This document shows, in pieces, positions 8,566 through 36,031 of a stretch of 36,031 nt of DNA. The translations under genes were made by a program, and so were the position numbers. The DNA is taken from positions 1-36,031 of the forward strand of contig VGBT01000025.1 of assembly GCA_016870395.1 (NCBI GenBank), given 5' to 3'. The notes under the pieces are model-generated. The model saw only the letters and a list, made by a program, of their open reading frames with translations, had not been told where the DNA came from and made no database searches. Within the stretch, counting starts at the first letter, position 1. Every line of letters starts with the position of its first letter. Source of the DNA: Actinomycetota bacterium. Its GTDB lineage: Bacteria > Actinomycetota > Acidimicrobiia > IMCC26256 > JAENVU01.

Positions 8566-8973
8566 TCACGCCTCCTTGATCGGCTCGTAGGCGAAGGCCA
8601 CCGCCTCGGTGCCTTCGTCGTCGGTGCCCGCGACGTAGGTCGTGAGCGACACCCTCAAACCGGCGCGCACGTTCTCGGGGTCGGGCTCGACGTTCACGAG
8701 GTTCGCCTTCACCACCCCACCGCCGTCGACGTCGATCACCGCCGACACGTAGGGCGTCGGGACTCCGGGCGCCGCGCGATAAACGATCGTGAAGGTTCGC
8801 ACCATGCCGGTGTCGGCGAGGCGCCGGCGCCGGAAGCCCGGCTTGCCGGACTTGGCGTCCGCGTTGCGGCGGTCGAAGTACAGCGCGCCGGTCTCCACGG
8901 ACTCGTTGGCGACGAGATGAGGGGGACCGTCGTCGAGCACCAAATAGTCGACGATCGGGATCTGCTTGCCCAT
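8566..8973 (-). CDS. DUF35 OB-fold protein lacking the zinc-ribbon cysteines
   Basis: The protein has 135 aa. The ATG at 8971-8973 is preceded by GAGGAG, and upstream in-frame codons lack any such site. The segment RTFTIVYRAAPGVPTPYVSAVID and the following VKANLVNVEP are the OB-fold core of DUF35 (Zn-ribbon/OB-fold acyl-CoA-associated) proteins, which partner thiolases. Members normally carry a four-cysteine rubredoxin-like zinc ribbon before the OB fold. Here the corresponding stretch (HLVANESVETGALYFDRR through PGFRRRRLADTG) has no Cys, and the whole protein contains none. It probably supports or channels substrate for the coupled thiolase downstream but cannot bind zinc in the usual way. 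Confidence 0.82.
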   Translation of the reverse strand: MGKQIPIVDYLVLDDGPPHLVANESVETGALYFDRRNADAKSGKPGFRRRRLADTGMVRTFTIVYRAAPGVPTPYVSAVIDVDGGGVVKANLVNVEPDPENVRAGLRVSLTTYVAGTDDEGTEAVAFAYEPIKEA

Positions 8974-9014
8974 GGGCGCTCCTCGACTGCGCCGGCGATT
9001 GCCGGTCGACGGGG

Positions 9015-9045
9015 ACCGTACCGTGACCTCCCACCCCCGGCTCAA
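9015..9045 (-). promoter_or_regulatory. Possible promoter of the DUF35-thiolase pair
   Basis: On the minus strand TTGAGC (9045-9040) is followed after 19 bp by TACGGT (9020-9015), about 40 bp before the DUF35 ATG. The spacing is longer than ideal, so this is tentative. Confidence 0.25.
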
Positions 9046-9063
9046 GCCGACGGCGCGAATGCC

Positions 9064-9135
9064 GACAATCCAGCCGTGACAGCCACGGCCGACGGGCGCG
9101 ACAATCCAGCCGTGACAGCCACGGCCGACGGGCGC
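9064..9135 (+). repeat. Perfect 36-bp tandem duplication spanning the start codon
   Basis: Positions 9064-9099 and 9100-9135 are identical. The unit is 12 codons long in the reading frame of the GGDEF-EAL gene (D-N-P-A-V-T-A-T-A-D-G-R), and each copy contains one of the two plausible GTG starts (9076 and 9112). A near-match to the end of the unit (GCCGACGGCGCG) at 9046-9057 may be the sequence from which it slipped. Confidence 0.9.
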
Positions 9136-12129
9136 TCAGACCCGGCTGGCGCCGAGCTGGCGGAGGTCATCCTCGAAAACCTGGCCGACGGCATCGTCGT
9201 CCTGAGCTCCGAAGGCCGGATCGAGCACGCGACCGCCGGGCTCGAACGGATGCTCGGCGCGCCGGCCGGCGCACTCGACGGGCTCGACTGCGCGGAGCTG
9301 CTCCACCCGGCAGATCGCGACGCCGCGCTGGCGGACATCGAGCATTCGATCGCTCGCGGCAACCAGTCACCGGGCCCGGTGAGCTTCCGGCTCGCCCACC
9401 ATGACGGGTCCTGGGTGACGACCGAGATCGAAGCTGCACCCGGACTGCTCGACGGCGGGCGCATGATCGTCACCGTTCGCGACGTGAGCAAGTGGGTCGC
9501 GGCCGAACTGAAGCTCGAACAGGCGAAGAGCCTTCGCGAGCTCGTGGGGGCGATTGCGGCGCGCTTCGTCGACGTCACCCCCGACGCCGTGGACGACCTC
9601 GTCGACGCGGCTCTTGCCGATCTCGGACGCTTCACCGGCGTCGACCGGAGCTATGTGTTCCGCTACGCGCCGGACCTCCTGACGATGGACAACACCCACG
9701 AGTGGTGTGCTCCGGGCATCGAGCCGGCGATCTCCAAGCTGCAGGGGCTGCCCTCGGAGAAGATCCCTGCCTTCCACGCCAGCATCGGGCGCGGAGCCAG
9801 CGTGAAGATCCCTCGGGTGGCCGAACTCCCGGCCATGTGGGCCCGAGAGCGCGTGATCTTCGAGGACCAGGACATTCAGGCGCTGGTTGCAGTGCCGATG
9901 ACCCGCGCCGGCACTCTCGTCGGCTTCCTCGGCTGCGACAGCGTGCGCCGCGAGCGAATCTGGGACGAGGACTTCGTCGGCCTGCTTCGGGTCGCGGCCG
10001 ACGTGATCGGCTCCGCGCTCGCGCGACGCGACGCTCAGCTCGATGCCGCCCTTCGCGAGAAGCGGCTCAGGGCGTTGGTCGCGAACTCCGGCGACCTCAT
10101 CGTGGTGCTCGACCGCACCGGCAGCTTCGTCATGCCGCCACTCGGTCGAAACATCCTCAGCCTCGCGGGGGACGACCTGCCAGGTAAGTCCGCGCTCGAC
10201 CTCATCCACCCCGATGATCTCGAGAAGGCCATCGAGGCGCTCGGCTTTCTCGTCGAGAGGCCCGGCACCCGAGGCACGCTCGAGCTTCGTCTCGTCAACG
10301 CGACCGGCGAGCACGTTCCCGTGGAGGTCGTCGGCGTCAACGCGCTCGAGAACCCTGTGATCGATGCGATCGTGCTCAACGTGCGCGACGTCCGCGACCG
10401 TGTGCGCACGGAACGCGAGCTGCGCGACAGCGAGGAGCGGCTTCGCACCCTGGTGATGAGCATCCCGGGAGCGGTGTTCCAATGTGAGGTGGAGCCGCCC
10501 TATCGCGACGTGTTCGTGAGCGACGCGATCTACGACCTCACCGGGTTCGCTGCCGAGGAGTTCCTCTCGCATCAGGTGCTCTTCGAGCAGCTGATCCTGC
10601 CGAAGCATCGGGCCCGCACCGACCGCGAGCTCGAGGCCGCGATACGCACCCGACGTCCGTACGAGATCGAGTACCCGATCCGGCATCGCAGCGGCCAGGT
10701 GCGGTGGCTTGCCGAACAGGGACAGATTTCGTTCGACGCCGAGGGCACACCGCGCTTCCTCGAGGGAGTGATCCTCGACGTCTCGGCACGCAAGACGCTG
10801 GAGGAACAGCTCGCGCACGATGCAGCGCACGATCCACTCACCGACCTTCCCAACCGGGTTCGCCTGCTGGAACACCTCAACGAGCAGCTGGCCGAGGCAT
10901 CGCGACGCCCGTACACGGTTGCCGTCCTGTTCCTCGACCTCGACCGGTTCAAGCTCGTGAACGACGCGCTGGGCCACCGCGCCGGCGACGAGCTTCTGGT
11001 CGCGTTCGCACGACGCCTGAGCGGCGTGTTGCGCGCCGGTGACCTCGCGACCCGAAGCGGTGGAGACGAGTTCGTGGTCGTGTGCTCGGACATCCGCAGT
11101 CCGGTCGAAGCCGAGCACGTCGCCGAGCGGATCCGACGCATGCTCCGCTTGCCGTTCGACCTCCACGGCCGGGAGGTCTTCGTCACCGCGAGCACCGGGA
11201 TCGCGATTGCCGACGGCTGCGCCAACGCCACCGACCTGCTGCGCGACGCCGACGCGGCCGCCTACCGGGCCAAGGAGCGCGGCCGGAACCGGTACGAGGT
11301 CTTCGACACCGCGTTGCGCGCCGCGACAGCCGCAGCGCTCGAGACGGAGACCGCCCTGCATCGCGCGGTCAAGGAAGACCAGCTCATCCTCCACTACCAA
11401 CCCGTGATCGCCTTCGCCAGCGGCCGCGTCGTCGGCTTCGAGGGCCTGCTCCGCTGGCAACACCCCGAGCGGGGGCTGCTCACGCCCGACGCCTTCATCG
11501 ACGCGGCCGAGGCGTCCGGACTCATCGTGCCCATCGGGCACCAGGTCATCAACCTCGCGTGCCAGACGCTGGCCGGCCTGCGAGACGACCAGCTCGGGCT
11601 GGCGGTGAACCTCTCGCCGCGCGAGCTCGCCCAGCCCGACCTCGTCGACCGCGTGCGCGCGGCCATGCGCGATTGGGGCATCGATCCGTCACGGCTCTGC
11701 CTCGAGATCACGGAAGGGGCGCTCTTCGAAGACGCCGGCGCCGCGCTCGACACGCTCGACGCCCTCAAGGACGCCGGAGTTCGACTCGCGATCGACGACT
11801 TCGGCACGGGCTACTCGTCGCTCAGCTACCTGAGCAGGATGCCGGTGGACGTGGTGAAGATCGACCGCTCGTTCGTCGCCGAGCTGAAAAGCGACGGCTC
11901 CGGCGACACGATCGTCGCCGGCGTCGCCTCCTTGGCGCGGGGACTGGGACTCGACGTGGTCGCCGAGGGCATCGAGCACCGCGACCAGGCCGACCTCGTG
12001 CGTCGCCTCTTGTGCACCCACGGGCAGGGCTACGTGTGGTCCCGTCCAGTGCCACTCGACGAGGCCGTCAGCTTCGCGAGCCGAACTCCACTGCTCGGCC
12101 GGGCCCTCGATGCAATCGCGCGACACTGA
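9076..12129 (+). CDS. PAS-GAF-PAS-PAS-GGDEF-EAL cyclic-di-GMP signalling protein
   Basis: The protein has 1017 aa if the GTG at 9076 is used, or 1005 aa from the GTG at 9112. The frame stays open upstream but would overlap the divergent DUF35 gene. No membrane segment is visible, so it is a cytoplasmic sensor. The order is PAS (about 25-140), GAF (about 155-315), PAS (about 330-450), PAS_3 (about 455-575), GGDEF (about 580-745) and EAL (about 755-1000). The cyclase motif GGDEF is at 662-666, with the inhibitory RxxD (R-A-G-D) five residues before it. The phosphodiesterase half has E-G-L in place of E-A-L at 789-791 but keeps LEITE, IDDFGTGYSSL, VVKIDRSFV and VVAEGIE. Both activities are plausible. 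tRNA-Leu begins six bases after the stop. Confidence 0.93.
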   Translation: MTATADGRDNPAVTATADGRSDPAGAELAEVILENLADGIVVLSSEGRIEHATAGLERMLGAPAGALDGLDCAELLHPADRDAALADIEHSIARGNQSPGPVSFRLAHHDGSWVTTEIEAAPGLLDGGRMIVTVRDVSKWVAAELKLEQAKSLRELVGAIAARFVDVTPDAVDDLVDAALADLGRFTGVDRSYVFRYAPDLLTMDNTHEWCAPGIEPAISKLQGLPSEKIPAFHASIGRGASVKIPRVAELPAMWARERVIFEDQDIQALVAVPMTRAGTLVGFLGCDSVRRERIWDEDFVGLLRVAADVIGSALARRDAQLDAALREKRLRALVANSGDLIVVLDRTGSFVMPPLGRNILSLAGDDLPGKSALDLIHPDDLEKAIEALGFLVERPGTRGTLELRLVNATGEHVPVEVVGVNALENPVIDAIVLNVRDVRDRVRTERELRDSEERLRTLVMSIPGAVFQCEVEPPYRDVFVSDAIYDLTGFAAEEFLSHQVLFEQLILPKHRARTDRELEAAIRTRRPYEIEYPIRHRSGQVRWLAEQGQISFDAEGTPRFLEGVILDVSARKTLEEQLAHDAAHDPLTDLPNRVRLLEHLNEQLAEASRRPYTVAVLFLDLDRFKLVNDALGHRAGDELLVAFARRLSGVLRAGDLATRSGGDEFVVVCSDIRSPVEAEHVAERIRRMLRLPFDLHGREVFVTASTGIAIADGCANATDLLRDADAAAYRAKERGRNRYEVFDTALRAATAAALETETALHRAVKEDQLILHYQPVIAFASGRVVGFEGLLRWQHPERGLLTPDAFIDAAEASGLIVPIGHQVINLACQTLAGLRDDQLGLAVNLSPRELAQPDLVDRVRAAMRDWGIDPSRLCLEITEGALFEDAGAALDTLDALKDAGVRLAIDDFGTGYSSLSYLSRMPVDVVKIDRSFVAELKSDGSGDTIVAGVASLARGLGLDVVAEGIEHRDQADLVRRLLCTHGQGYVWSRPVPLDEAVSFASRTPLLGRALDAIARH

Positions 12130-12135
12130 TCGAAC

Positions 12136-12219
12136 GCGAGCGTGGCGGAACCGGCAGACGCGCCAGGTTTAGGTCCTGGTGTCCGACAGGACGTGGGGGT
12201 TCGACTCCCCCCGCTCGCA
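12136..12219 (+). tRNA. tRNA-Leu(TAG)
   Basis: This is a class II tRNA of 84 nt. The acceptor pairs GCGAGCG (12136-12142) with CGCTCGC (12212-12218). The anticodon stem CCAGG/CCTGG encloses TTTAGGT (anticodon TAG at 12170-12172). A long variable arm (TGTCCGACAGGACGT) precedes the T-arm with loop TTCGACT. The discriminator is A, and CCA is not encoded. Confidence 0.95.
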
Positions 12220-12244
12220 CTATCGCCCGTCCTCGCGCCTTCGG

Positions 12245-12607
12245 CTACTTCCGGCGTTTGCCCTTGCCCTTCGGTCTCGCCTTGCCCTTGCGCCGGAAGA
12301 GGCCCTTGCCCTGCTTGCCATCGAGCTCGGCCAGGATCTCCGGTGCAGCGGCGTTCACGATCTCTTCGGCCTCGTCGAGCAACGCAGCGACGTCCTCGCC
12401 CTCGGGTTCCTGCTCGGGCGGCTCCGCCGAGTGCGCAAGGCTCCCGTAGTGCCACCCCGCGTCGAAGCGTCGAAGCGTGAACCCGGCGCAGTCCTCCGGG
12501 CAGCGCCACGGCGCCTCGGGGGCCAGGTCGAGCCGGCACTTCCGCACGATCTCCCCGCTCGGATAGGTCCGGGACTCGTAGTGGCGGCAGTCGACCCTCA
12601 TCGGCAT
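12245..12607 (-). CDS. Small Cys-containing protein with basic tail, unknown function
   Basis: The protein has 120 aa from the ATG at 12605-12607; a second ATG two codons later is equally possible. The N-terminal third contains CRHYESRTYPSGE, a lone Cys (RKCRLDLAPEAPWRC) and CPEDCAGF, which gives five cysteines in a spacing that could bind a metal. The middle is acidic (EQEPEGEDVAALLDEAEEI) and the last 25 residues are almost all Lys, Arg and Gly. Similar small proteins are widespread in actinobacteria without an assigned role, to my recollection. The Lys-rich tail suggests nucleic-acid contact, which is inference. It is convergent with tRNA-Leu and divergent from the next GGDEF gene. Confidence 0.72.
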   Translation of the reverse strand: MPMRVDCRHYESRTYPSGEIVRKCRLDLAPEAPWRCPEDCAGFTLRRFDAGWHYGSLAHSAEPPEQEPEGEDVAALLDEAEEIVNAAAPEILAELDGKQGKGLFRRKGKARPKGKGKRRK

Positions 12608-12723
12608 GGCGCGATCTTCGCAGACCGACACCCGGGAGATCGCTCGGACCCCCTCAAAGCCTGGCGGCTCAGCGCCGATAGAGGGGTGGGCAGCCGGAAG
12701 ACGGGCCTGTACGAGGGGCGGCG

Positions 12724-15108
12724 ATGGCAGCGAGCGAACAGGACCGATACCTCGCCCTGACCGAGCATGCTCCCGTCGGCCTCTTCGAGATGGACGCCGA
12801 GCTCCAGTGCGTCCTCGTCAACCAGCGGTTCTGCGCGATGACCGGGCTGACGCCAGAAGCCGCCATGGGTGACGGCTGGGGTGCGGCGCTGCACCCCGAC
12901 GACGTCGAGGCGATCGCGGTGGAGTTCTCGCGCGCGATGCAGGCGGGTGACGACTACCGGATCGAGCATCGCTGGGTCCGCCCCGACGGCACGGTGACCT
13001 GGTGCCTCGCGGTCGGCAAGGCACGACGCGACGCGGCTGGTCAGGTGACCGGCTTCCTCGCCGTCGTCACGGACGTCACCGCCGAGCACCACACCGAGGC
13101 TCGACTCGCCGCGCTGCTCGAGGCATCCTCGGACGCGATCTTCATCATCGACACCGACACGACGATCCGGTACGTGAGCCCCGAGATGACCCGTCGCTAC
13201 GGATGGGTAGCCGACGAGCTGATCGGAACGCCCGGCATCGACCTGCTCCATCCCGACGACCTGGGCGCCGCGGCCGAGGCGATGGAGCGCCTGCTGGCCG
13301 GTGGTCCCGGGGCGCAGCTCCGAGTCGAGTACCGCAGCCGCCACCGCGACGGCCATTTCGTCCCCGTGGAGGCGGTCGTGACGAACTGCCTCGACAACGA
13401 GGCGATCGGTGGCCTCGTGCTCAACGCGCGCGACGTCACCGACCGACTTCGCAGCGAGCAGCTCTTGACTGAGGCCCAAGAGCACTACCGGCGCAGCGTC
13501 GAGACCGCCGACAAGGGCATCTGGACCATCGACCCGGACAACCGGACCACCTTCGTGAACCGGCGGACGGCCGAGATGCTGGGGTACTCGGTCGACGAGA
13601 TGCTCGGCGCGTCGCTCTTCGCCTTCATGGACGACGAAGGACGGACGATCTGGTGCGAGAACCTTGAACGGCGCCGCACCGGGATCTCCGAGCATCACGA
13701 CTTCAAGTTCCGTCACCGCGACGGGCACGCCATCTGGACTCGCCTGAGCACGTCGCCGATCCTCGGTGACGACGGCAGCTACGAGGGAGCGACCGCGCTG
13801 GTCACCGACGTCACCGCACAGCGCGAGATCGAGGAGCAGCTCAGGTACAACGAGGCCCGGCTCACCGCGCTCTTCGAGGCGTCCTCGGACATCATGGCGG
13901 TGCTCGAACCGAGCGGCGAGTGGCACGCCAGTCCCGCCGGAACCCGCATCCTCGGCTACCCGATGGGCTTCGACCCGCCCGGCGGGATCTTGTCACTCGT
14001 CCACCCCGACGACCTGGAGCTCGCCGCCACTGCCATCCAGGAGATGTTCGAGGATTGCCGCTCGGGCCACGAGCCGCTACGGGTCCGAATCCGACACCTT
14101 GACGGGCACTACCGGTGGTTCGACTGCACCGCCAAGAACCAGCTCGACGACCCGAACGTCAAGGGCATCGTGATCATCGCCCGCGACGTGACCCTGCAGA
14201 AGGAGGCGCAGGACGCGCAGCGTACGGCCGAGAGCCGTTTCCGCAGCGCGTTCGAGCGAGGACCGCTCGGCATCGCTCTCATCGGGCTCGACGGCCGATT
14301 CATGGACGTCAACCCCGCGTTCTGCAAGACCGTCGGACGATCGCGCGACGAGCTGATCGGCACCGAAAGCGTTCTGCTGGTCCAGGACGAGGACCGCGAG
14401 CGCATCGTGGGAGAGGGTCGCGACCGAGTACTCGGCGATGTCGCGGAAGTCCGCCCCGTTTGGATGCGCCGGCCCGACGGCACGATCGTCTGGATCCTCG
14501 CCGACGTCGCCCTCGTCCCCGGCGCGACGGGTGAGCCCGACTGCATCATCGCGCTGATGGCCGACGTCACCGAGCGCAAGCGGCTCGAGGAGCGACTCGA
14601 GTTCCAGGCGTTCCACGACCCGCTCACCAAGCTCCCGAACCGCGCCCTGCTCCAAGACCTCATGGAGCAGGCCTGGGAGCGGCGCACCTCGACTGGGACC
14701 CTCGCACTGCTCTTCGTGGATCTCGACCGTTTCAAGCTCGTCAACGACACGCTCGGCCACGACGCGGGCGACGAGGTGCTCCTGCTCGCGGCACGCCGAC
14801 TCGCGGGGAGCATGCGCACCGGCGACACGGTCGCACGTCTCGGAGGCGACGAGTTCGTCGTCATCTGCGAAGCCATCTGTGGACGCGACGAAGCGGTCAC
14901 GATCGCGAACCGCATCCGCGAGTCGTTGGCCCGCACATACCGGCTCAGCGCGGGGACGGCGCAGGTGGCGGCATCGGTCGGCGTGGCGATCGACACGGAC
15001 CACGTGACGGTCGACGACCTCCTGCGCGATGCCGACGTTGCCGCGTACCGTGCCAAGGAGCTCGGGCGAGATCGGGTCGAGGTCTTCAACCGCGTCGTCG
15101 GCCTCTGA
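12724..15108 (+). CDS. Five-PAS GGDEF diguanylate cyclase
   Basis: The protein has 794 aa. The ATG at 12724 has GAGGGG upstream. Five PAS/PAC units follow one another (about 5-120, 125-245, 255-375, 380-495 and 505-620). Several have the typical LHPDD or VHPDD turn and RDVT/TDVT exits to the linking helix. The C-terminal GGDEF domain (about 625-790) begins FHDPLTKLPNRALL, has the GGDEF motif at 707-711 and an R-T-G-D inhibitory site five residues before it, so it should make cyclic-di-GMP under product control. No EAL domain and no membrane segment are present. None of the PAS domains shows an obvious heme- or flavin-binding signature. It is close to the GGDEF-EAL gene and shares its GGDEF and PAS style, which suggests common ancestry. 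Confidence 0.93.
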   Translation: MAASEQDRYLALTEHAPVGLFEMDAELQCVLVNQRFCAMTGLTPEAAMGDGWGAALHPDDVEAIAVEFSRAMQAGDDYRIEHRWVRPDGTVTWCLAVGKARRDAAGQVTGFLAVVTDVTAEHHTEARLAALLEASSDAIFIIDTDTTIRYVSPEMTRRYGWVADELIGTPGIDLLHPDDLGAAAEAMERLLAGGPGAQLRVEYRSRHRDGHFVPVEAVVTNCLDNEAIGGLVLNARDVTDRLRSEQLLTEAQEHYRRSVETADKGIWTIDPDNRTTFVNRRTAEMLGYSVDEMLGASLFAFMDDEGRTIWCENLERRRTGISEHHDFKFRHRDGHAIWTRLSTSPILGDDGSYEGATALVTDVTAQREIEEQLRYNEARLTALFEASSDIMAVLEPSGEWHASPAGTRILGYPMGFDPPGGILSLVHPDDLELAATAIQEMFEDCRSGHEPLRVRIRHLDGHYRWFDCTAKNQLDDPNVKGIVIIARDVTLQKEAQDAQRTAESRFRSAFERGPLGIALIGLDGRFMDVNPAFCKTVGRSRDELIGTESVLLVQDEDRERIVGEGRDRVLGDVAEVRPVWMRRPDGTIVWILADVALVPGATGEPDCIIALMADVTERKRLEERLEFQAFHDPLTKLPNRALLQDLMEQAWERRTSTGTLALLFVDLDRFKLVNDTLGHDAGDEVLLLAARRLAGSMRTGDTVARLGGDEFVVICEAICGRDEAVTIANRIRESLARTYRLSAGTAQVAASVGVAIDTDHVTVDDLLRDADVAAYRAKELGRDRVEVFNRVVGL

Positions 15109-28232: not shown

Positions 28233-30188
28233 CTATCGAAGGCTCACCGCCTTCGCCGACGCCGGCTGCTCGCCGACAACCGTGAGGCCGAGCTGGCCGA
28301 GCATCCAACCGCTCACGTAGCGGGCGCCATAGCCACGGAAGTGCACTCCGTCCGGCCGCAGAGGCTCGCCGTCGACGAGGGTGCGGCAGCTCTCGAAGTC
28401 CGTGGGACATACGAAGCGCGCGAGGTCCACGAGTCCGACCGCAGGATGAGCACTCACGTACTCGTACACGGCCGTGTTGGTGCAGTCCGTCGACTCGGCA
28501 CTGCGACGTTGGTCCTCGAGCGGACCCCAGTAGCGCGAGTAGGGCGCGGTCACGAGCACCACGCGCGCGCCCTTGGCTCCGAGCTGCGCGACTGCGCCGT
28601 CGAGTCCCCGCCGGTACCAGGGAGCGAAGCCGGCCTGACACGGCTGCAGCCAGATCCCGTCGTAGAGATAGGCAGTCACGCCGGCATCCCCCACCAACAA
28701 CAGCACCGTGTCGGGACGGAAGGTGGCGACGTCGTGACGCCAGCCGTCTGTGCAGTGGATCGTCTGGTGGCCCGCGTCGCGATCACCGAATCGCGCTTGA
28801 TCGGCATCGGGAAACGTGCACGAGAACCGACCGCGGTTGAGCACCACCGAGGGAGGACTTGTCACGAGCTGTGCCAGTCCCTCGCCGGCGAGCATGTTCG
28901 CGACCGAGTTTCCGGCGACCATCACGCGCTGTGCGTTGCGCTGAGACGCTAGCCGGGCGGCCCGCCTCGGAGCGACGATGCCTTGCTGCAGGGCGGTCGT
29001 CGGCGGCGCATACCGCAACGTCGTCGCGATGCAGAGCACGACGAGGGCGGCGGCGGAGGCGGGAGTCAACCACCGAAGCGTCGAAGCCGAGAACGCACCG
29101 TACCGAATCGGGCGCTCGACGAACCGATACGAGAGCGCCGCGAGCGAGAGCGTCACTGCGAGGCGGACGGCGAGCAGGGGTCACCCATCGAGCCCGACAC
29201 GCTTCTCGTCGAGGTACACGTAGAGCGGCCAGTGGTACAGGTACGCGCCGTAGCTGATGAGCCCGAGCCCGACGAGCGGACGGAGCTCGAAGGCGCGGGC
29301 GAGGGGCCCGCGTACCGGGTGCGCTGCCGACGCGACCACGGCAGCACCGGCGAGGCCACAGAGGAGAAGCCCGCCTTGGTAGAGCAGCGGGCCGCTCAAC
29401 CGGGTCCACGCGACGGCAAGGGCCGCGACGGCGACGAATGCGACCATCTCGAGTCGCCTACGGCCACCCCGGGTCCGAACCGGACCACGCCAGGCGAGCC
29501 ATGCAGCGAGCGACGCGCCGAACAGGATCGCCGGCGCTCGGGTGTCGGTGCCGTAGTAGACGCGGTTCGCCTCGCCGATGCCGAGCGCGAGGATCGCGCA
29601 GCTGCCAGCCAGCCCCAGGGAGAGCGCGAGCATGCGCCGGGCAGTCGAGGATCCGTCTGCGCGCGAAGCCGAGCGGCGTCGGCCCCAGGCAAGGACGGCG
29701 CCGAAGACCAGCGGCCACACCAGGTAGAACTGCTCCTCGATCGCGAGGCTCCAGGTGTGCTGGAGCGGCGAGGGGACGAGGAACAGCTCCCAGTAGCTCG
29801 ACCCGCCGAAGACCGCGCGCCAGTTCGCCACGTAGCCGAGCGTGGCGAGTGCCTCCCCCCTGATCCGCTCGAGCTCCGCGGGTTCGGCAACGAGCACCGC
29901 GTACAACGCGACGCCCGCGAGCATCAGGAAGAGGGCAGGCAGCAGCCTCCTGGCGCGCCGCGCCCAGAAGCCGGCGAACGAGATGCGGTCGGTGGCACGG
30001 CTCTCGGTCAGCAGGAGCGCCGTGATCAGGAAGCCCGAGAGCACGAAGAACAGATCGACGCCGAGGAACCCACCCTCGAGCCGCCCGCCATGGAACACGA
30101 GCACCGCGGCAACGGCCGCGCCACGGACGCCGTCCAAAGCGCGGATGCGCGCGACAGGATGCCCCTCGGCACGGCTCCCCCCAGCCAT
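28233..30188 (-). pseudogene. OafA-type acyltransferase-3/SGNH protein, interrupted by a stop
   Basis: The ATG at 30186-30188 starts an acyltransferase-3 membrane domain: RIRALDGVRGAAVAAVLVFH, GGFLGVDLFFVLSGFLIT and WSLAIEEQFYLVWPL, with about ten membrane helices. After VYLDEKRVGLDG a TGA at 29181-29183 stands where Trp is usual. The same frame then continues LLAVRLAVTLSLAALSYRFV and a periplasmic SGNH domain (VMVAGNSVANMLAGEG near its start, DGVHFRGYGARY at the end). The two halves together match the 650-residue O-acetyltransferase that modifies surface polysaccharide. Without the stop it would be intact. It could be a real nonsense mutation, a sequencing error, or a readthrough case. A separate SGNH protein from the GTG at 29156 has no ribosome-binding site. 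Confidence 0.82.
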
Positions 30189-30220
30189 GGCCCATGGTCC
30201 CACAAGAGCCCTGTCGCCGG

Positions 30221-30226
30221 TACCCT
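30221..30226 (+). promoter_or_regulatory. -10 box of smpB, probably leaderless
   Basis: TACCCT ends 8 bp before the smpB ATG, and no Shine-Dalgarno sequence lies between. This TANNNT-to-start spacing is typical of leaderless actinobacterial transcripts. No clear -35 element is present. Confidence 0.35.
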
Positions 30227-30234
30227 CGCTGCCG

Positions 30235-30702
30235 ATGTCCCGCCGTGGCGACCAGCTCGTGATCTCGAACCGCAAGGCCCGCCACGACTACCACGTGCTC
30301 GACGTGTGGGAGTGCGGGATCGTGCTCCAGGGCGCCGAGGTGAAGTCGCTACGGGAGGGCAAGGGCAACCTCCAGGACGCCTACGCGCGCGTCGAGGACG
30401 GCGAGGTCTGGATGCACGGCATGCACATCTCCCCGTATGCCTTCAGCCGCGGGGAGCTCGACCCGGTCCGCAAGCGCAAGCTCCTGCTGCACCACCGCGA
30501 GATCGAGGACGTGCGTCAGCGAACGCAGGAGAAGGGCTTGACGCTCGTCCCGCTGCGCGTCTACTTCAAGGACGGGCGGGCCAAGGTGGAGCTGGCCCTG
30601 TGTCGGGGCAAGAAGCTCTACGACAAGCGCCAGACCCTCGCCGAGCGCGACGCGAAGCGCGAGGTGGAGCGAGCACTGAAGTCCCGAGGCCGCGCGGACT
30701 GA
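30235..30702 (+). CDS. smpB: SsrA-binding protein SmpB
   Basis: The protein has 155 aa from the ATG at 30235. It binds tmRNA and brings it to stalled ribosomes. Motifs are VISNRKARHDYHVLDVWECG, VLQGAEVKSLREGKGNLQDA (OB-fold strands that contact the tRNA-like domain), GMHISPYAFS, KRKLLLHHREI, and the C-terminal basic tail LCRGKKLYDKRQTLAERD that enters the mRNA channel. The length is standard. It ends 2 bp from the convergent site-2 protease gene, and ssrA lies 1.3 kb further on, on the same strand. Confidence 0.98.
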   Translation: MSRRGDQLVISNRKARHDYHVLDVWECGIVLQGAEVKSLREGKGNLQDAYARVEDGEVWMHGMHISPYAFSRGELDPVRKRKLLLHHREIEDVRQRTQEKGLTLVPLRVYFKDGRAKVELALCRGKKLYDKRQTLAERDAKREVERALKSRGRAD

Positions 30703-31978: not shown

Positions 31979-32332
31979 GGGGGTGCGTGGCTTCGATTCT
32001 GGGGATCGAAGTGGGTGAAGCGAGCCGACGTCGCCGGATCGTCGCGAAAGAGCCGGCACACTGAACACTTGCCGAGGACAACCTCGCACTCGCCGCCTAG
32101 GAATAGGTAGCGCGTCTTACCCGGCCCAGCCGCTCGGCCGGAACCGGGACGTCATAAAGAGCGGCTCACCGCCGGGACGGGCCCCGTGGCCCGGCGGGAC
32201 ATCGCAGCGGGGCTGGGACCCACGCAGGCCGCCGGTGGGCGGCGCGGGTCCGAGACCAACCCATCGGCTGCGCTCGGAGAAGCCCCACCAAGGACTCGGA
32301 AGACGGGGGTTCGACTCCCCCCACCTCCACCA
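31979..32332 (+). ncRNA. ssrA: Transfer-messenger RNA (tmRNA)
   Basis: The RNA is 354 nt including an encoded CCA. The tRNA-like ends pair GGGGGTG (31979-31985) with CACCTCC (32322-32328). The third pair is G-U, the identity element for alanyl-tRNA synthetase. The T-arm is 32305-32309/32317-32321 with loop TTCGACT, the discriminator is A and CCA is at 32330-32332. The 5' part (GTGGCTTCGATTCTGGGGAT) matches the conserved tmRNA start. The tag reading frame is at 32071-32100. GC-rich complementary stretches after the tag fit the usual pseudoknots. It rescues stalled ribosomes together with SmpB, encoded 1.3 kb upstream. Confidence 0.95.
32071..32100 (+). other. tmRNA tag-peptide reading frame
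   Basis: From the GCC at 32071 the frame reads A-E-D-N-L-A-L-A-A and ends with TAG at 32098-32100. The A-L-A-A end is the usual degradation signal seen by ClpXP-type proteases. The resume codon is inferred: Ala codons are normal, and the frame is closed upstream by a TGA at 32062-32064. If ACA at 32065 were used, the tag would be two residues longer. Confidence 0.75.
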
Positions 32333-32359: not shown

Positions 32360-32462
32360 TCCGGTCGTCACCGCTCGGCACGATCGACGCGCTCGGTGGC
32401 CACGACGTCGCGGGGCGGGTGTTTGCCGCGACCGCGGGCCGACTTGGACGGTCTCGTCCCCT

Positions 32463-32679: not shown

Positions 32680-35600
32680 ATGGCGGGACGTGGGCGGAGC
32701 ACGGCGATGCGGGCGGTCACGCTCCTCGGGCTGACGGGGATCGTGGCGGCGGGGATGCTGGCGACCGCACCGGCCGCGCACGCGGTGCAGCCCTCCCCCG
32801 GGCACACGAAGCTGCCACCGGAGACGCCGCGCACGAACGTCCCACGGATCACCACCGGCGAGATCACCGACCTCGAGTACATCGGCAACCGCGTGTTCAT
32901 CGCGGGCACCTTCACCTCGATCCGGAACAACACGACCAACAACACGACGACGGTCAACCAGCCCCGGCTCGCGTCCTACAACATCGACACCGGCCTGATC
33001 GACACGGGCTTCCGGCCCGTGTTCGGCAGCGGCATCACCGAGATCGAGGCCACCCCCGACGGGACCAAGCTCTTCGTCGTCGGCCGGTTCAACACCGTCA
33101 ACGGCGTGACCAAGCGCAAGATCGCCTCCATCAACCCCGTCACGGGAGCGACGATCACCGGGTTCACGGCCAACGCGAACGCGGCCGCGACCTCGGTCGA
33201 GGCGACGAACACCACCGTGTACGTCGGTGGGCAGTTCACGACCGTCAACAACGTCACGCGGGTCGGCCTCGCCGCGGTCAACGCCAACACCGGGGCGCTC
33301 GTCAACGGCTTCGTGAACAACCTCTCGGGCGGCATCGGGGTCGACGGGGCCCTGAGCGTGCAGGCCCTGGCACTGACCCACGACGACTCGAAGCTGCTCG
33401 TGGTGCACACCGGCCGCCAGATCGCGGGCCAGGACCGCTACGGGATGGGCCTCATCGACACGCAGACCAACCAGCTGCTCCCCTGGCGCAGCCGGCTCTG
33501 GGATGACAACCTGCAGTTCGTCGGTGGCGTCAACCGCATCTACGCGGGCGCGATCGCGCCGAACGACCAGTACTTCGTGGTCGGTAGCGGCTCGGGCGGC
33601 GACCGGCCGCCGATCAGCGACACCGCCGTGGCCTACCCGATCGCCGGCGGCGACTTCGTGGAGCCGCTGTGGATCTCGCGCAACTTCGACAGCGTGTACT
33701 CGATCGCGATCAGCGAGCAGGCCGTGTTCCTGGGCGGCCACATGAACTACATGGAGTCGCCGACCGCGCCCGATCCGTGGCCGGGCCTCACCACGACCGG
33801 GTATGGCCGCGGCCAGGGCCTCGGCGGCTACGGCCTCGGCGACGACATCGTGATCCGCGACCACATCGGCGCGGTCAGCCCGGCCGACGGCAAGGCGCTG
33901 CCCTGGGACCCGAGCTCGAACTCGTTCGAGGGCAACAAGGCGATGCTGGTGACCCCGCGGGGTCTGTTCGCCGGCGGCGACGCCACCACCCAGGGCGGCC
34001 AGAACGTCGGACGCGTGGCGTTCTACGACTTCAACAGCGTTCCCGCGCCCAACCAGAACGAGACCACGATCGACACCCCGATCAAGGGCCGGGTGGAGCC
34101 GCCCGACGAGGAGTTCGTCGTGGAGGGCACGGCGACGGCCACGAGCGGCGTCCGCCGGGTCCGGCTCGAGGTGCTCGACCGCGACACCAACCGGTACCTC
34201 CAGGACGACCTGGTCACCTGGGGGAGCTCGAACACGATCGAGACGACCCTCACCACACCCAACGCCACCTCCACCGGCTGGTCGCAGGCGCTGACGATCT
34301 CGGGGAACCGCAGGCTCCAGCTCCAGGCCCGCGCCTTCGGGCTCAACGGCACCAGCGACAACACCAAGGCCATCACCAAGATCGAGACGTTCGGCCTCCT
34401 CGACGACACGCCGACAACGACGATCTCGGGCCCCTCGGGCAGTGTGATCCCCACGACGACGTTCACGATGACCGGCAGTGCCCAGGACGACGTCGGCGTC
34501 GACTCGATCCGGTTCTCGTTCCGGGACGAGCAGAACCGCTACCTCCAGGACGACGGCACGGTCGACGCGATCTACAACACGTTCGCCGGTCTGCCCGACG
34601 TCGTCGGGTCACCGAACACGACGTGGTCCTACGAGGTCACGGTGCCCTACGAGGGTGAGTGGACGGTGCAGGCGATCGCCGTCGACACCGCGGGGCAGCC
34701 CGACATCCGCAGCGCGGACCGGAGCTGGCTCGTGAGCTCCACTGCGGTCGCGCCCAACGTGGCGATCACCGCACCGGCGGTGATGAACCCGCCGACCGCC
34801 GCGTTCCCGCTGACGCTGGCGCCGGGCTCGTCGATCACGTTCGCGGGGTCGGCCTCCGACGACCAGAGCCTCAACCGGGTCGAGATCCGGCTGCGCAACA
34901 CCGCCACCCGCGAGAACCTGGGCGCCGACGGGACCTGGGGCGAGGACGTGATCCGCGGCTGGCACCGCATCACGCCGTTCAACGTGGGCGGGACGTCCTA
35001 CAACTGGTCGTACACGACGCCGTTCACCACGGTGCCGGGCCCCTACGAGTTCGAGGTGCGCGCCACTGACAACCTCGACCTCACGACCTCGACGACGAAC
35101 CGGGGGCTCCTGACGATCAACGTCCAGGTGCCCGGCGACGCGTACCCGGACGGGCTGCTCGACGTGACCGGAACCCTCACCGGGCTCACGAGCCGGCACC
35201 TCGACCTGACCGGCCGTGCCACCGACGACATCGGCGTCTCCGCGGTGCGGCTGACGATCCGGGACCGCACGACGAGCCGGTACCTCCAGCCCGACGGCAC
35301 GATGCTGTCGCAGTTCGCCTACCTGGACGCTACGCTGTCCAGCCCGGGCGCGCTGAGCACCAACTTCGCCCGCTCCGTCGACCTCCCGGTGAACGGCGAC
35401 TACGACGTCACCGCGTTCGCGTTCGACACGTCGAACCAGCAGGACCCGTCGACGACGGGCGCGACCGCGCGGTACCAGGTCTTCCCCGGGGACCTGCCTC
35501 CCACCGTCACCGAGAACCTGCTCGCCCCGACCGAGGGCAACGTGTTCACCGACGGCCGGATCTTCGTGAGCGGCCGGGTCGAAGACGACGTGCAGATCGC

Positions 35601-36031
35601 GCGGGCCGAGGTGGCGATCCGCGACGCCTTCGGGCGCTACATGGCGTCCGACGGCACGTTCACCAGCACCACGCTCTCGTGGCGCAACGCGTTCCTCAAC
35701 AGCCCCGGCTCGCCCGGGTCGAACTTCTCGTACACGACGCCGGTGATCCCGGCCGGGGGCTACACCGTGCTCGTCCGCGGCGTGGACCAGAACGGCCAGG
35801 GGACGCCCGTGCCGAGCCAGCGCGGCGTCACGGTGACCACACCGGTGAACGCCCCGCCGGTCGCGAGCTACACGATGAGCTGCAACCAGAACGTGTGCAC
35901 GTTCGACGGCCGCTCGTCGACCGACGAGAACCCGACCACCTTGACGTACTCCTGGACGTTCGGGACCCTGACCAACACCGGTCCGCTGCCGACCCGGACG
36001 TTCACGGGCGCGGGCACCTACACGGGCATCC
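32680..36031 (+). CDS. Large secreted multi-domain protein (propeller-like, five repeat modules, PKD), 3' end missing
   Basis: An open frame of 1117 codons starts at the ATG at 32680 and runs off the window. Residues 1-35 are a signal peptide (RGRST, then a hydrophobic core, cleavage after A-A-H-A). Residues about 60-440 contain repeats such as FVVGRFNTVNG, TVYVGGQFTTVNN, VFLGGHMNYM and LFAGGDATTQGG, each followed by V/IA..N..TG segments, as in delta-60/beta-propeller domains. From about 450 to 1050 come five Ig-like modules of 115-125 residues, each with a core like IRDRTTSRYLQPDGT. The Arg of this signature is at 505, 620, about 743, 867 and 986. At 1057 a PKD-like domain begins (PPVASYTMSCNQNVCTFDG). 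It is probably a cell-surface adhesin or carbohydrate-contact protein. No catalytic motif is seen in the part present. Confidence 0.9.
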   Translation, partial: MAGRGRSTAMRAVTLLGLTGIVAAGMLATAPAAHAVQPSPGHTKLPPETPRTNVPRITTGEITDLEYIGNRVFIAGTFTSIRNNTTNNTTTVNQPRLASYNIDTGLIDTGFRPVFGSGITEIEATPDGTKLFVVGRFNTVNGVTKRKIASINPVTGATITGFTANANAAATSVEATNTTVYVGGQFTTVNNVTRVGLAAVNANTGALVNGFVNNLSGGIGVDGALSVQALALTHDDSKLLVVHTGRQIAGQDRYGMGLIDTQTNQLLPWRSRLWDDNLQFVGGVNRIYAGAIAPNDQYFVVGSGSGGDRPPISDTAVAYPIAGGDFVEPLWISRNFDSVYSIAISEQAVFLGGHMNYMESPTAPDPWPGLTTTGYGRGQGLGGYGLGDDIVIRDHIGAVSPADGKALPWDPSSNSFEGNKAMLVTPRGLFAGGDATTQGGQNVGRVAFYDFNSVPAPNQNETTIDTPIKGRVEPPDEEFVVEGTATATSGVRRVRLEVLDRDTNRYLQDDLVTWGSSNTIETTLTTPNATSTGWSQALTISGNRRLQLQARAFGLNGTSDNTKAITKIETFGLLDDTPTTTISGPSGSVIPTTTFTMTGSAQDDVGVDSIRFSFRDEQNRYLQDDGTVDAIYNTFAGLPDVVGSPNTTWSYEVTVPYEGEWTVQAIAVDTAGQPDIRSADRSWLVSSTAVAPNVAITAPAVMNPPTAAFPLTLAPGSSITFAGSASDDQSLNRVEIRLRNTATRENLGADGTWGEDVIRGWHRITPFNVGGTSYNWSYTTPFTTVPGPYEFEVRATDNLDLTTSTTNRGLLTINVQVPGDAYPDGLLDVTGTLTGLTSRHLDLTGRATDDIGVSAVRLTIRDRTTSRYLQPDGTMLSQFAYLDATLSSPGALSTNFARSVDLPVNGDYDVTAFAFDTSNQQDPSTTGATARYQVFPGDLPPTVTENLLAPTEGNVFTDGRIFVSGRVEDDVQIARAEVAIRDAFGRYMASDGTFTSTTLSWRNAFLNSPGSPGSNFSYTTPVIPAGGYTVLVRGVDQNGQGTPVPSQRGVTVTTPVNAPPVASYTMSCNQNVCTFDGRSSTDENPTTLTYSWTFGTLTNTGPLPTRTFTGAGTYTGI

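Follow-up and report, generated by a model that had tools for sequence, protein, structure and literature searches.

The number of immunoglobulin (Ig)-like repeats in bacterial surface proteins is usually variable. One named Ig-like family of relevance here is Big_7 (PF17957), a model of 70 positions, and a protein used below for comparison is RbmA of Vibrio cholerae, which has FnIII domains, belongs to the biofilm matrix and binds the Vibrio polysaccharide (VPS) (PMC5605196). We analyzed contig G000:C25 (VGBT01000025.1) in its entirety (36031 bases, referred to as the window) and found at its end an incomplete gene for a predicted exported protein, belonging to a family in which five distinct Ig-like modules are kept in number and order. 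The open frame starts at 32419 on the plus strand, with an ATG at 32680 or 32707 as the likely start, and leaves the contig at 36030; residue numbers refer to its product, P0001, which consists of a signal peptide, a propeller, five Ig-like modules and an incomplete PKD domain. An earlier reading of the DNA made without database searches (the sequence-only reading) had placed Ig-like repeats between a propeller and PKD in a surface protein; the repeats, their place between the two and a secreted product were borne out.

A scan of named genomes for relatives gave 79 loci; these were preselected by propeller peptides, so arrays on other heads could escape. Exactly five modules were present in 60 frames, with a near-constant module pitch of 119/114/131/118, and the three frames with four modules each ran into the end of their stretch. 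The five-module proteins came from Nocardioides, Pimelobacter, Marmoricola, Kribbella, Micromonospora, Catellatospora, Humibacillus and several metagenome-assembled genomes (MAGs). In a tree of 333 modules, each copy position formed one clade (62 of 62, support 0.93 to 0.99), which argues that the five copies are older than the spread of the family; no expansion, shrinkage or homogenization was seen. The suggestion of the sequence-only reading that more copies may follow beyond the contig end did not hold: all 60 full arrays had five, and an orthologue (G054; 1694-residue frame, 70% identical to the window protein) continued with seven PKDs and then a stop without an anchor. Throughout the family, the protein either terminates after the five modules or carries a run of PKDs. 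Several genomes (L062, L100, L219 [G523:C79], L093, L110) encoded two or three paralogues with five modules each, often arranged in tandem, with three in a row in Marmoricola L100. At one locus (L054, G005:C15, 1032-2474), module 2 was joined directly to module 5 and the match was broken by stops; this copy may be truly damaged or internally deleted, or may reflect an assembly fault.

In the full-length tree (midpoint rooted), the window protein and the G054 orthologue were paired with a support of 1.0, and this pair grouped with Catellatospora and a Pseudonocardiales MAG (0.993) inside Actinomycetes sequences. A class-level search found a patchy distribution of the family, and plasmid records gave only weak propeller matches. 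It is plausible that the long form reached the window's lineage by horizontal transfer. The literature searched held no description of the family or its five-copy array; the protein family is undescribed and occurs widely in soil and water bacteria.

The five modules together span positions 34060 to 35844, are 112 to 127 residues long each and share 15 to 29% pairwise identity. The claim that they are a true five-fold repeat was upheld by two kinds of evidence. The copies recognized one another with phmmer, with E values down to 3e-11 (a handful of pairs, copies 1 and 3 among them, gave no direct significant match), and a profile of 23 modules drawn solely from proteins outside the family matched all five copies of the window with E values from 7e-7 to 4e-11, far beyond the best of 1000 shuffles (0.08). 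The motifs lie at residues 500, 615, 740, 862 and 981, giving intervals of 115, 125, 122 and 119; the first and last had been given correctly before, and the middle two had been put at about 123 and 124.

Against Big_7, the whole protein scored 37 bits (cut-off, 24.1) in three stretches. Taken singly, copy 5 (24.3) was the sole copy to pass, followed by copy 3 (21.1), copy 2 (20.8) and copy 1 (12.7), and copy 4 gave no hit, so that copies 1 and 4 are far below the cut-off or without a match. InlK_D3 (PF18981) stayed below its cut-off of 25 with scores of 21.1 and 20.8. The match to Big_7 runs across the full module and the Ig-type strand order is common to both, but the modules are longer than the 70-position model, with a hairpin of about 20 residues added after strand C. 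The PDB sequence search returned as the nearest solved relative 9kvu, the Ig domain of the enzyme CelAly, which aligned without the hairpin, and the PDB sequence profile of the full-length family gave nothing useful. The window modules do not fit the compact Big_7 form of about 70 to 95 residues without the hairpin, a form that we read informally from the model length and 9kvu. The AlphaFold model of copy 2 alone reached a mean pLDDT (predicted local distance difference test) of 97.5 with an Ig/E-set strand order, in agreement with the proposed fold, and in the model of the propeller with all five modules (mean pLDDT, 87.8) the hairpin was seen in each copy. Foldseek with a single module placed Ig-like domains at the top, with template modeling (TM) scores of 0.62 for the C-terminal (Mo-co dimerization) domain of sulfite oxidase and 0.61 for GbpA, and also returned a porphyran-binding module among carbohydrate-related Ig-like domains. 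The sulfite oxidase domain is the best fold match, but it is an enzyme dimerization domain of about 15% identity that has only the E-set fold in common with the modules. Foldseek with the full model gave repeat-level matches only (TM, 0.1 to 0.2; complement, mastigoneme, integrin), which were not used as evidence. The modules are almost certainly bacterial Ig-like (E-set) domains of the Big_7 type with an inserted hairpin. The sequence-only reading had known of no named family for them; Big_7 does cover the protein, but the signature itself is in no Pfam model, because the hairpin is an insertion relative to Big_7. A confident match of every module to a known family with the same signature was not found, since only copy 5 passed and the hairpin lies outside the model.

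The signature R-Y-L-Q-x-D-G-T was found at this inserted hairpin. DSSP on the copy 2 model assigned short strands at Y45-L46 and V52-D53 that flank the Q-D-D-G-T turn, and the hairpin sits between the long strand 31-40 and a strand beginning at 70. Copy 1 of the window has D-D-L-V-T in place of D-D-G-T and thus no glycine, a departure that the sequence-only reading had missed, whereas the degenerate forms it had described in copies 3 and 5 were confirmed. Over 62 family proteins, the leading R was kept in 40% for copy 1, 74% for copy 2, 94% for copy 4 and 16% for copy 5, and in none for copy 3, where 97% have E. The leucine/methionine, the D/N-G turn, the T/S and the next hydrophobic residue were better kept than the R, and copies 1 and 5 had lost parts of the turn. 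Within each copy, the hairpin columns were more conserved than the remainder of the module (0.72 to 0.87 versus 0.61 to 0.69). The retained hydrophobic, D/N-G and T/S pattern suggests that the hairpin contributes to the fold. When the module profile was searched across the phylum, 82 of 296 genomes gave a match, many of these partial, and at the hairpin position the modules of unrelated proteins had mostly Y-W-N-G-x-x-W, with the intermediates W-W-R-A-D-G-T-W and W-L-Q-A-D-G-T-W. These Y-W-N-G-x-x-W modules (unnamed; L141-L159) have the same length, strands, hairpin place and N-G or D-G turn, but usually occur once or twice per protein in other architectures, with an aromatic Y-W...W and not Y-L-Q; the W-L-Q-A-D-G-T-W of L141 links the two forms. 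Since unrelated modules carry Y-W-N-G-x-x-W there and a profile of them detects every window copy, the signature is best read as the family form of a structural hairpin. The binding pocket that had been proposed around R-Y-L-Q is not supported, although not disproved, as the R is poorly kept and the residues that persist are of the fold type.

The missing end of the gene very likely lies on a second contig of the same genome, C77. Its minus-strand frame of 503 residues aligned gap-free to residues 111 to 613 of the G054 tail (63% identity), and the last residues of the window protein aligned to the start of that tail, about residues 1 to 64. The two contigs share no bases, so they could not be joined by overlap. 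Because both ends align to successive parts of the same tail, C77 very likely holds the continuation of the window gene, including six further PKDs, with a gap of about 46 residues in between. C77 also carries a complete paralogue of 1043 residues (46% identity), which has five modules but lacks PKD and clusters with G056 and HRbin12 in the full-length tree. Between the paralogue and the PKD tail are YjbR/MmcQ-like and DUF222/HNH-like genes (named by sequence reading), and we infer that the paralogue is convergent with the window gene, about 2 kb past its end.

Conservation is highest in the propeller, where 118 of 406 columns reach at least 95%, compared to 12 to 26 columns per module. The full model has a recurring four-strand pattern of about seven blades, the count being our reading of the strand list. 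DUF5122 (PF17164) scored 28.3 in the full-length orthologue L071 and 28.4 in the relative L117, both above the cut-off of 27. Other DUF5122 proteins in polysaccharide loci (L122, L130 and others) are extracellular, share a homologous N-terminal propeller and have PKD tails, but malectin or other C-terminal parts replace the five-Ig array and identity is only 26 to 30%. Malectin is a carbohydrate-binding domain, and in two array-less propeller relatives among those scanned it stands before PKD, at the place of the Ig array. Kribbella and Nocardioides members (L060, about 40-260 and 340-560; L063) have at the N terminus a domain about 200 residues long (ISFVAA.S..GNRTAHTV.VP...GD.LVL) in alternation with PKD. 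This domain is found at the C terminus in L097 and recurs at the C terminus of related propeller proteins, and no Pfam hit was found across it.

Neighboring genes were called with a codon-position gene caller, and polysaccharide genes were counted within about 6 kb with the same queries throughout; 54 random 16 kb windows from four genomes served as the control. Neighbors of the Wzz, Wzy or sugar transferase type were present at 13 of the 60 five-module loci and in none of the 54 random windows (Fisher, 1e-4). At propeller loci without the array, the count was 11 of 19 against the same 0 of 54 (Fisher, 2e-8). The types found at relatives' loci were Wzz, Wzy_C, Alg14-like and Bac_transf, several but not all of which were confirmed by Pfam. 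The gene is flanked in one Nocardioides/Pimelobacter clade by Wzz-like, Alg14-like (36.5 bits) and sugar transferase (Bac_transf, 216.6 bits) genes, the Wzz-like label resting on similarity to the Pfam-confirmed Wzz of L058. In a Pseudonocardiales MAG, Wzz and a weak Wzy_C match stand beside the five-module gene, and in N. aequoreus a glycosyltransferase, a polysaccharide pyruvyl transferase and a weak Wzy_C match do so. The polysaccharide association belongs to the propeller class and is partial for the five-Ig family. A link specific to the five-Ig family was considered and rejected, as the array-less propeller relatives show it more often. Those relatives (L117-L136, DUF5122 type), which often adjoin Wzy or Wzz, include one protein from a gammaproteobacterial MAG. 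For the protein as a whole, the glycan association proposed by the sequence-only reading gains indirect support from the relatives' polysaccharide neighbors.

With a little better than even confidence, we regard the protein as an exported, exopolysaccharide-associated scaffold in which a propeller head is carried on a stalk of five fixed, non-interchangeable, hairpin-bearing Ig domains, plus PKD; for the polysaccharide part of this function, our confidence falls just short of even. The protein would be exported and act in the extracellular polysaccharide layer. There, the propeller would be a ligand-binding head, probably touching the cell's own exopolysaccharide, the five modules, with the PKDs where present, would act as a spacer of defined length, and the hairpins may make each module, or its junction with the following one, more rigid. 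RbmA offers a possible functional analogy as a matrix scaffold, with a single-module fold match at a TM score of 0.44 to 0.45 and an E value of about 2e-4. That score is below 0.5, the PDB sequence search gave no hit to RbmA, and RbmA has two FnIII domains, no propeller and no sequence relationship shown, so the likeness is one of analogy only.

Several points weigh against the scaffold. The C termini read showed neither a membrane anchor nor a sorting signal, the location being a predicted one, and no study of any family member was found in the literature searched. The propeller of the window protein reached 14.1 with DUF5122, below the cut-off. Core polysaccharide genes were not found near the window gene or the C77 paralogue, nor at the five-module loci of Kribbella and Catellatospora, and a few Micromonospora loci had only GT2/FkbM-type genes nearby. 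Since 9 of the 13 positive five-module loci belong to the one Nocardioides/Pimelobacter clade, the positives amount to about four independent events. The queries were derived from these very loci, and the random windows came from four genomes only.

A fibrillar adhesin, in which an Ig/PKD stalk presents the propeller tip to other cells or surfaces and not specifically to the cell's own exopolysaccharide, would equally be secreted, with a repeat-rich stalk, a propeller head and a fixed copy number as in a stalk of set length; we consider it unlikely, since the C termini lack a cell wall sorting signal or transmembrane anchor and the polysaccharide gene neighborhoods favor matrix assembly. Quite improbable is an exopolysaccharide enzyme or assembly factor whose propeller cuts, trims or tethers the polymer, with the Ig modules as accessories. 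The conserved propeller stretches GSGGDRPPINDT, HTGRQI and GGHF.W.ESPT..PWPG and the Wzz/Wzy neighbors in relatives would suit it, but no catalytic family was recognized by Pfam, NCBIfam or PDB sequence profiles, and the fold search yielded repeat-level matches only. Least probable is the idea that the R-Y-L-Q-x-D-G-T turns are binding sites and the array a five-valent lectin-like or adhesive surface: the raised conservation of the hairpin columns and the carbohydrate-related Ig-like domains (RbmA, the porphyran-binding module) in the fold search speak for it, but the leading R and the Q vary across copies and orthologues, the common pattern is that of a tight hairpin (hydrophobic, D/N-G, T/S, hydrophobic/aromatic) also present in the unrelated Y-W-N-G-x-x-W modules, and the modules are less conserved than the propeller.

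Beyond the scaffold reading for this protein, we only tentatively propose that actinobacteria have an undescribed class of proteins associated with exopolysaccharide, in which a propeller head is combined with interchangeable stalks, either malectin plus PKD or a strict array of five individually specialized Ig copies that would fix the distance from the polymer to the contact of the tail. The kind of domain, a bacterial Ig-like domain, is known; the hairpin lies outside the Pfam models, and the literature searched describes neither the protein family nor its fixed five-copy array. With five distinct copies whose order is kept in all 60 full arrays found across several Actinomycetota families, the family is a good case for a role of fixed copy number, and the neighborhoods offer a testable extracellular polysaccharide role for an unannotated class of propeller plus PKD, malectin or Ig proteins (Nocardioides, Kribbella, Catellatospora). 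The R-Y-L-Q-x-D-G-T and Y-W-N-G-x-x-W hairpins could support a dedicated domain model, which would be useful because Big_7 misses many such modules.

Table 1. Features of the five-module gene in the window and of the related frames on contig C77
Feature	Position	Strand	Evidence or remark
Gene, secreted propeller/Ig/PKD protein	32680..36030	+	3′ end lost to contig end; orthologues
Signal peptide MRAVTLLGLTGIVAAGMLATAPAAHA	32707..32784	+	Sequence reading; similar hydrophobic N termini in relatives
Beta-propeller, DUF5122-like, about 7 blades in model	32830..34035	+	Profile score, conservation, full model
Ig-like module 1	34060..34398	+	Alignment, Big_7 scan, full model, tree
Inserted hairpin, module 1, RYLQDDLVTW	34192..34221	+	Motif scan, full model, family conservation
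Ig-like module 2	34408..34743	+	Alignment, Big_7 scan, tree, full model; single-module model (pLDDT 97.5)
Inserted hairpin, module 2, RYLQDDGTV	34537..34563	+	Motif scan, single-module model, family conservation
Ig-like module 3, longest, degenerate signature	34750..35130	+	Alignment, Big_7 scan, full model, tree
Inserted hairpin, module 3, ENLGADGTW	34912..34938	+	Motif scan, full model, family conservation
Ig-like module 4	35146..35490	+	Alignment, Big_7 scan, full model, tree
Inserted hairpin, module 4, RYLQPDGTM	35278..35304	+	Motif scan, full model, family conservation
Ig-like module 5, last	35497..35844	+	Alignment, Big_7 scan, full model, tree
Inserted hairpin, module 5, RYMASDGTF	35635..35661	+	Motif scan, full model, family conservation
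First PKD domain, interrupted by contig end	35848..36030	+	PKD_4 (PF18911), 28.2 bits vs cut-off 27, passed despite truncation
Complete paralogue	G000:C77 (L004:541-3669)		Directly after GGDEF-like frame
PKD tail, opposite strand to paralogue	G000:C77 (L004:7309-5798)	-	Very likely missing end of window gene

Directly upstream of the surface-protein gene is a transfer-messenger RNA gene (31979-32332; tag AEDNLALAA), and the five-module gene of G006 (L050) is likewise near an smpB-like gene. On the minus strand of the window, acyltransferase-3 and SGNH-hydrolase genes are neighbors (28233-30275), a combination that we take to be of the kind that adds acyl groups to surface glycans. Farther off, about 17 to 24 kb from the surface-protein gene, 8917-15108 encodes two large cyclic-di-GMP proteins with PAS domains, one GGDEF-EAL and one GGDEF.

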